Positions 60,652 through 62,568 of a DNA stretch of 64,000 bases are shown one piece after another (positions within the stretch are counted from its first letter, which is position 1; each line of letters opens with the position of its first letter). Source of the stretch: Prosthecobacter dejongeii (GTDB lineage: Bacteria; Verrucomicrobiota; Verrucomicrobiia; Verrucomicrobiales; Verrucomicrobiaceae). Where the stretch lies: assembly GCF_014203045.1 (NCBI RefSeq), contig NZ_JACHIF010000008.1, positions 124,001-188,000 of the forward strand. The letters run 5' to 3'. The notes beneath the pieces were generated by a model, which had not been told where the DNA came from, did not search any database, and worked only from the letters and a program-made list of their open reading frames with translations. Both the position numbers and the translations under genes were made by a program.

Positions 60652-61398
60652 ATGCCCATCTCTCACGCAGACCTCTTGCAACTCAAGCGCTGGAACACAC
60701 CGACCATTTACAATGGCTGGGAACAGATCACGAAAGCCGATGTGGCTGCGGAGGCTTTTAATCTGGAAGAAACTCGGGACTTCATGCCGCAGATGGGCCC
60801 CATGGTGGGGTTTGCCGTGACGGTGGTGATCCAGCCTTCGGACAAAAGTCATCGTGAAGCTCATCCGAACGCCTGGGCGGAGTACCGTCGCTACATTGCG
60901 AGTGTGCCGGGCCCGAAGATCGTGATCGTGCAGGATCTGGATAAACCTCGCGTCATTGGCTCCTTTTGGGGAGAGGTGAATAGCAATGCCCACCGGGCGC
61001 TGGGCTGTGTGGGCAGCATCGTGGATGGAGCCATTCGAGATGTGGATGAAATGACCAATGCGGGATTCAAGGCGCTCGCTCGCCGCCTTTGTGTAGGGCA
61101 TGCGCATGTGCATCCGGTGCGCTGGGGTTGCGATGTGGAAGTTTTTGGTCGCAAGATTCAACCTGGGCAGTTAATCCATGCCGACAAACATGGGTTTATG
61201 GCACTGCCTTTTGGCGATGAGGATCGGCTTTTAGAAGCCTCCCGTTTCATGGATGCCAATGAGTGTGAGACGGTCATCCCTGCGGCCCGCGGCAGTGTGG
61301 GATTGCCACTGGAGCAGGTGATCGAAAACCTGAATGCGGCGGGGAAACAATTTGGGGAGAATGTGCGACGCCAATTCCAGCGTGAGGGAGAGTGGTGA
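60652..61398 (+). CDS. RraA/HMG-aldolase-like protein
   Basis: A 248-residue protein of the RraA/4-hydroxy-4-methyl-2-oxoglutarate aldolase fold. The core segment FWGEVNSNAHRALGCVGSIVDGAIRDVDEM, near residues 107-136, carries the glycine-rich loop and the R-D pair that bind a divalent metal and oxaloacetate-like ligands. N-terminal LKRWNTPTIYNGWE replaces the usual T-x-x-x-D opening. It could be an aldolase or decarboxylase for a keto acid; RNase E inhibition is unlikely here. The gene precedes the fusion gene on the same strand by 96 bases but an operon is uncertain. Confidence 0.85.
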   Translation: MPISHADLLQLKRWNTPTIYNGWEQITKADVAAEAFNLEETRDFMPQMGPMVGFAVTVVIQPSDKSHREAHPNAWAEYRRYIASVPGPKIVIVQDLDKPRVIGSFWGEVNSNAHRALGCVGSIVDGAIRDVDEMTNAGFKALARRLCVGHAHVHPVRWGCDVEVFGRKIQPGQLIHADKHGFMALPFGDEDRLLEASRFMDANECETVIPAARGSVGLPLEQVIENLNAAGKQFGENVRRQFQREGEW

Positions 61399-61494: not shown

Positions 61495-62568
61495 ATGCCT
61501 ACTGACGCCGAAGCCTACGCTCCCATGACCCCTGCTGAAGTCCGCGCTTTGCGTGACCAACTCGATGCACAGGGGAAAAAACTGGTCTTTACCAATGGTT
61601 GCTTTGACCTCTTGCATGCTGGTCATGTGCGTTATTTGAATGAGGCGAGAGAGCTGGGCGATGCGATGGTGGTAGCTCTGAATTCAGATGAATCTGTGCG
61701 TGAATTGAAGGGGCCCACGCGCCCCATCAACAGCGAAAATGACCGGGCTGAAGTGATGGCTGCTCTGCGTGCTGTGGATGCGGTGGTGGTGTTTGGTGAC
61801 AAGCGGGCTACGTCCCTCATCGAAACCATCCAGCCACACATCTATGCCAAAGGTGGCGACTACACGGTGGACTCTCTAAACCCGGAAGAACGGGCTGCGC
61901 TGGATGCGGCTGGCACGGCCATTCGCATCCTGCCGCTGGTGCCGGGGCGTTCGACAACGGCCACGGTCCAGCGGATGACCCATGATGGGGGCGCTGGGCG
62001 TCTGCGCATCGGCGTGCTGGGCTCCGGTGAAGGATCGAACCTGCGTGCGATTTTGGCGGCCATAACGGCGGGCGCTTTGCAGGCGGACATCAGTGTGGCT
62101 CTTTCGGATCAGGCCGATTCTAAGTTCCTTCAAATTGCCCGTGAAGCGGGCGTGCCTGCCATTCATGTGGACGGTGGGGCGAATCCGCGCCGATTTGATG
62201 ATGCGGCGCAAAAGGAGATCGCCGAGCATCTGCAGCGTGCGCAAGTGGATGTGGTGGTGCTCATCGGTTTCATGCGCATTCTCAAGGAACCGACGCTGAG
62301 CCTGTATGCGGATCGCATTGTGAACGTGCATCCGTCTTTGCTACCTAAGCACAAGGGTGCGAATGCACCTCAACTGGCGATCGAAGCCGGGGATACGGAG
62401 ACGGGCTGCACGGTGCACCTGGTGACGGCGGAGATTGATGCCGGTCGCATCCTGGCCCAGGCGACGGTGCCAGTCCTGCCTGGAGATACGTCGGAGAAAC
62501 TGCATGCGCGTATCAAGGACCAGGAGCACAAGCTGCTGCCCCAGGTGCTGGCGGAGTGGAAGAAGTGA
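61495..62568 (+). CDS. Heptose-phosphate nucleotidyltransferase/PurN fusion
   Basis: A 357-residue fusion. Residues about 28-162 are a complete HldE-C/RfaE2-type nucleotidyltransferase: FTNGCFDLLHAGHVRYL with the H41-x-x-H44 motif, VVALNSDESV, KGPTRPIN, IYAKGGDY and the ending STTATVQRM. Residues about 170-357 are a complete PurN-like formyltransferase: GSGEGSN at 176-182, VVVLIGFMRIL, IVNVHPSLLPKHKG with N277 and H279, and the catalytic D315 in AEIDAGRI. The linker is only about 8 residues. The first activity makes ADP-heptose for lipopolysaccharide, the second GAR formylation in purine synthesis. The usual PurN segment GLHTH is GANAP here. No stop or frameshift separates the halves. Confidence 0.92.
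   Translation: MPTDAEAYAPMTPAEVRALRDQLDAQGKKLVFTNGCFDLLHAGHVRYLNEARELGDAMVVALNSDESVRELKGPTRPINSENDRAEVMAALRAVDAVVVFGDKRATSLIETIQPHIYAKGGDYTVDSLNPEERAALDAAGTAIRILPLVPGRSTTATVQRMTHDGGAGRLRIGVLGSGEGSNLRAILAAITAGALQADISVALSDQADSKFLQIAREAGVPAIHVDGGANPRRFDDAAQKEIAEHLQRAQVDVVVLIGFMRILKEPTLSLYADRIVNVHPSLLPKHKGANAPQLAIEAGDTETGCTVHLVTAEIDAGRILAQATVPVLPGDTSEKLHARIKDQEHKLLPQVLAEWKK

Follow-up and report, generated by a model that had tools for sequence, protein, structure and literature searches.

The gene at positions 61495–62568 (+) of the window (the whole stretch of Prosthecobacter dejongeii DNA that was analysed, 64,000 nucleotides) joins HldC, the heptose 1-phosphate adenylyltransferase, to PurN, the glycinamide ribonucleotide (GAR) transformylase. 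In HldC–PurN two known enzymes are combined in a new way; the kind of system is not new. The protein is probably two ordinary enzymes on one tether, made by fusing neighbouring genes. The frame, its families, its active-site residues, the accompanying gene content and the relation to an adjacent gene pair in other genomes are direct observations. The preliminary description had claimed two complete enzymes in one frame, joined by about 8 residues; an intact 357-codon frame with zero internal stops, matches to both NCBIfam families and both catalytic sets bear this out, with the linker at residues 163–170. The features are:

61495..62568, + strand: gene for the hldC-purN fusion, 357 codons and a stop; 58 of 68 family genomes share the fused frame
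61552..61980, + strand: HldC / RfaE domain II (heptose 1-phosphate adenylyltransferase), residues 20–162; TIGR02199, 181.5 bits; Foldseek match to HldC 5xf2
61615..61626, + strand: HxGH nucleotidyltransferase motif, H41–H44; invariant in fused rows
61981..62004, + strand: linker, residues 163–170 (8 residues), the gap between the TIGR02199 and TIGR00639 matches
62005..62553, + strand: PurN (GAR transformylase) domain, residues 171–353; TIGR00639, 190.1 bits; Foldseek match to 3auf
62323..62331, + strand: PurN catalytic N277 and H279 (E. coli 106 and 108); 65/65 fused and 25/25 separate rows
62356..62370, + strand: GANAP loop, residues 288–292; variable in fused and separate PurN
62437..62439, + strand: PurN catalytic D315 (E. 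coli 144); 65/65 fused and 25/25 separate rows

Both halves were compared with protein families, and Pfam (PF01467 at residues 32–129, PF00551 at 171–352) agrees with NCBIfam (TIGR02199, TIGR00639). The catalytic residues had been placed correctly, as H41/H44 in the first half and N277/H279/D315 in the second; the latter three correspond by alignment to E. coli PurN residues 106, 108 and 144, of which we take Asn106 to be catalytic. The joining stretch, counted from residue 157 to 170, spans 9–139 residues across 58 fused frames and 13–20 in 47 of them. Two members of one genus (L080 and L081, g157) have Pro- and Ala-rich stretches of 123 and 139 residues. An open reading frame that we take to be RraA-like (window 60652–61398, +) precedes the fusion by 96 bases, in the same orientation. 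No paper that we found names an HldC–PurN fusion, in a search limited mostly to open-licence literature.

The fused frame was read in 58 of the 68 genomes of the window's family (f1), among the matches listed; this count includes the divergent fusion of genome G327, described below, and two partly cut frames (G336 and G297). Its recurrence rules out a frameshift or assembly artefact. The match ends at a contig end in two other family genomes (G288 and G318), and hldC and purN are separate neighbours in three (G234, G292 and G294). The remaining five (G293, G312, G313, G339 and G347) have a best listed match no better than 8e-15, the level reached by Fmt and PurU. Four of these are at most 85% complete; the fifth, G313, is 94% complete and has nothing at HldC or PurN level among the matches listed (best 8e-15). 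The G327 tail, used as a query against 386 genomes of the order, found PurN matches in at least 11 genomes of a second family, f62. Ten of the 11 inspected are fused, and in the eleventh (G437) HldC was not found within the 2.5 kb fetched around the PurN match. The f62 counts are no census, because the query is divergent and further f62 genomes were without a match.

Outside the order but in the same class, at least 22 of 56 genomes carry hldC and then purN as separate genes on one strand, the PurN match starting −4 to 482 bases past the hldC stop. Elsewhere in the phylum outside the family, none of 20 regions chosen for close matches or a long frame held a fusion; a 397-codon open frame in one of the candidates, G072, proved to be two genes. 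One scan of named genome records returned six loci, all fused and all labelled Verrucomicrobia or Prosthecobacter. A plasmid collection that includes some chromosome-sized records gave 805 matching records, and in one of these at least 80% of the query matched at a single place. This is a Rhizobium record (22.7% identity), annotated as purU plus an ABC transporter gene. The best match row there, a 538-codon frame on a 1-Mb plasmid of the actinobacterium Arthrobacter (L139:316–1929, +), has a C-terminal HldC domain and no PurN match, and is perhaps HldE-like.

A 71-row tree was rooted on the 20 pairs of unfused genes found beyond the order. The 48 fused rows, which come from 47 genomes, all fall into a single group together with three separate rows (L019 from G234; L084 and L085 from G292 and G294), at 100/100 support, and these three lie inside the fused f1 part. 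The fewest changes on this tree are three, so that one fusion followed by two later splits would fit, as would other, equally short histories. L019 is a long branch of unsure placement, and an earlier tree without f62 left its position unsettled. In L084 and L085 the fusion has apparently been re-split, with the PurN match in another frame 8 bases past the HldC stop. The fusion joint is real and old.

The HldC half sits exactly at its family threshold, with TIGR02199 giving 181.5 bits against a curated cut-off printed as 181.5; three relatives (L088, L089 and L079) fall slightly under it at 174.2–175.5 bits. The HxGH motif is kept in all 56 family fused rows with letters there (one of 57 is cut off) and in 10/10 fused rows of f62. 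Foldseek aligns this half with Burkholderia pseudomallei HldC (5xf2) at a TMt of 0.80–0.85 and 46–47% identity. Domain, HxGH motif, fold and a separate HldA partner are thus those of HldC / RfaE domain II; the difference lies in the company it keeps, since HldC elsewhere stands alone or is joined to the kinase HldA (HldE; NF008454), whereas here it is joined to PurN. In the window genome HldA has a gene of its own (347.1 bits, the cut-off being 345), and 67 of the 68 family genomes have the kinase at E ≤ 1e-60, 22 of the 68 with a score over the cut-off. The window genome's HldA gene adjoins a GmhA-like gene, and a heptosyltransferase-like gene lies in the same cluster, both under their curated cut-offs (168.3 against 209.45 bits and 77.9 against 185.3 bits, respectively). 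In G302 the contig with the intact fusion carries, some 15 kb away, a second, interrupted HldC copy (L086:501–890, +).

The PurN half scores well over its family threshold (TIGR00639, 190.1 bits against 150.1) and superposes on 3auf with a TMt of 0.84. It has the full domain, the catalytic Asn/His/Asp, the SGxGSN loop and the fold of GAR transformylase (TIGR00639; 3auf; E. coli 1c2t), and differs from plain PurN by the HldC domain in front. Seven columns (S177, G180, N182, N277, H279, D315 and E344) hold one residue each in 55/55 family fused rows, and are equally invariant in 10/10 fused rows of f62 and 25/25 separate rows. In E. coli PurN, His108 and Asp144 are named as catalytic (PMC3261824, in the part available to us). 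Across 16 close pairs, dN/dS is 0.014–0.108 for HldC and 0.029–0.154 for PurN, with dS above 1 in several; these ratios indicate that both halves are under purifying selection.

The window genome (a draft of 6.0 Mb in 22 contigs) has three PF00551 genes, namely the fusion, PurU (L002) and Fmt (L003). It therefore has no second stand-alone purN; PurT is present (618.3 bits against a cut-off of 502.15). Across the family, PurT occurs in 63 of 68 genomes at E ≤ 1e-80, in 59 of them over the cut-off. It was not found at that threshold in the two genomes of genus g158 (G344 and G345), whose fused PurN halves score 180.8 and 181.4 bits and which both have purH, cut short in G345. There the fused PurN is the sole GAR formyltransferase detected among the matches listed. 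True absence of PurT from this genus is likely but not certain, because the drafts are 92% and 86% complete. Absences in drafts can indeed be gaps: G293 (85% complete) has neither PurT nor PurN among the matches listed, yet has purH. In E. coli the formate used by PurT comes from PurU (PMC3261824, again in the part available to us). PurU was not found in G345, and the G344 copy is read through a single TGA. Taking PurU loss as a sign that PurT has gone works for genus g158 only; it is contradicted by G296, G293 and G312, which keep PurU without PurT, and by G302 and G288, which lack PurU and have PurT.

AlphaFold models the window protein with a mean pLDDT of 93.6 but a pTM of 0.60, which suggests two firm domains of unsure mutual placement. 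The protein may thus be two rigid domains on a flexible link. Foldseek with the whole model returns PurN structures as top matches, with HldC 5xf2 at rank 25.

One fusion departs from this picture. G327, a draft genome 88% complete, encodes a 405-codon open frame (L079:979–2193, −) whose HldC half shares 60–73% identity with nine relatives, against 24–31% for the PurN half. S177, G180, N182, M260, N277 and E344 are lost, as is D315 by alignment: the N277 column is Cys or a gap, and the D315 column is Gln with an Asp one column off, an alignment-dependent reading. The tail scores 23.6 bits with TIGR00639. AlphaFold nevertheless gives it a GAR-transformylase-like domain (block pLDDT 62–94, TMt up to about 0.7 against PurN structures), a model biased toward the PurN fold because its alignment was built from intact relatives. 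PurT, PurU and HldA are all present in G327. No second genome among the 386 of the order has a close match to this tail, among the genomes listed. The tail is possibly a pseudoenzyme domain.

That both halves are active, that they work independently and why the fusion was selected are inferred from these comparisons. Two neighbouring, co-directional genes would have fused to give a bifunctional protein. Its N-terminal half would adenylate D-glycero-beta-D-manno-heptose 1-phosphate to yield the ADP-heptose precursor of the LPS core, with the HldA kinase, from its separate gene, working one step earlier. The C-terminal half would use 10-formyltetrahydrofolate to formylate glycinamide ribonucleotide, working alongside PurT or in its place. 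The halves, flexibly tethered, would act independently, and the gain would be equal dose and joint expression; channelling is not expected, because no intermediate is common to both halves. A PurN domain is likewise joined to another enzyme in the PurN–PurH1 fusion of Halobacteria (PMC3261824, in the part available to us); PurH1 shares PurN's pathway and its need for tetrahydrofolate, whereas the partner here serves LPS synthesis. The two-enzyme reading carries caveats, as HldC lies exactly at its cut-off, the GmhA-like and heptosyltransferase-like genes lie under theirs, the PurT-less argument rests on draft genomes, PurU does not track PurT, and G313 has nothing at HldC or PurN level among the matches listed; a pure tether does not predict that G327 keeps a tail without the PurN active site.

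That tail allows for a role in structure or regulation, in which the PurN domain stabilises or oligomerises HldC, or senses GAR or formyl-folate for it. Sensing would match ADP-heptose output to nucleotide synthesis, and PurN catalysis would be optional where PurT exists. We think such a role unlikely, though it has several points in its favour: the fusion is kept across two families, and the G327 frame is open, with a conserved HldC half and a PurN-like modelled fold despite the lost residues, in a genome that has PurT and HldA. E. coli physiology also connects the pathways. Heptose and nucleotide synthesis both draw there on the pentose phosphate pathway, the common source of sedoheptulose 7-phosphate, leading to ADP-heptose, and ribose 5-phosphate, leading to purines; in a gmhA mutant, derepressing purine synthesis relieves the antibiotic sensitivity and the redox defects, though neither the ROS level nor the cell death (PMC10671730, in the part available to us). 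The preliminary description knew of no established metabolic link; this indirect one is in print, and the available part of that paper is silent on the fusion. Other points tell against such a role for PurN: G327 is a single draft genome with no listed second genome bearing such a tail, its model is biased as described, the catalytic columns are intact in the 65/65 other fused rows examined, two lineages seem to have re-split the genes, and the pTM does not point to a fixed interface. That the tethered PurN links ADP-heptose production to the state of purine or one-carbon metabolism, a dead domain being kept in the G327 lineage only for that purpose, is a shade less probable still.

A change of substrate was suggested at the outset from the loop at residues 288–292 (GANAP for the GLHTH of E. 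coli), the second half then formylating, for example, a sugar nucleotide. In most family genomes, PurT could take care of purine synthesis. ArnA-type and dTDP-sugar N-formyltransferases share the formyltransferase superfamily and have a cell-envelope connection. The loop itself, however, varies freely while the active-site and phosphate-loop columns are invariant. Of 55 family fused rows, 23 read GANAP and the others show 16 further words (17 in all), plain PurN is variable too (11 words in 25 separate rows), and solved PurNs include GLEAQ in 3auf and GLHAQ in 2ywr. K287 and A291 do not vary among the 55 family rows, yet they do in f62, and are therefore markers of the family, not of the fusion. 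The active site and the score over the equivalog cut-off are those of PurN, and the sugar nucleotide models stay far under theirs (NF005755, 35.7 against 238 bits; ArnA NF005998, 57.6 against 777 bits). Genus g158, with purH yet no detected PurT or second PurN among the matches listed, argues the same way, and on these grounds we reject the other-substrate reading as very improbable. Equally far-fetched is a PurN half also made alone from an internal start, giving separate enzymes besides or instead of the fusion. An ATG does lie in the linker stretch of 46/58 fused frames, and some start codon in 54/58, but the ATG is mostly M161 (M in 44/57 rows), inside the HldC match at 20–162, and a Shine–Dalgarno-like word precedes any linker start in only 6/58. 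The 58 frames give no consistent sign of such a start.

HldC–PurN, probably two ordinary enzymes on one tether, is a stable fusion of LPS precursor and purine synthesis, pathways without a common intermediate, kept across two families. As such it offers a clean case for asking why fusions of this kind persist, whether for co-expression, for dose or for a real coupling of growth to envelope building. Natural controls are at hand in the G327 tail that lacks an active site, in the genus where PurT was not detected and in the lineages that seem to have split the genes again. For annotation, purN in genomes with the fusion is not missing; it sits behind hldC.
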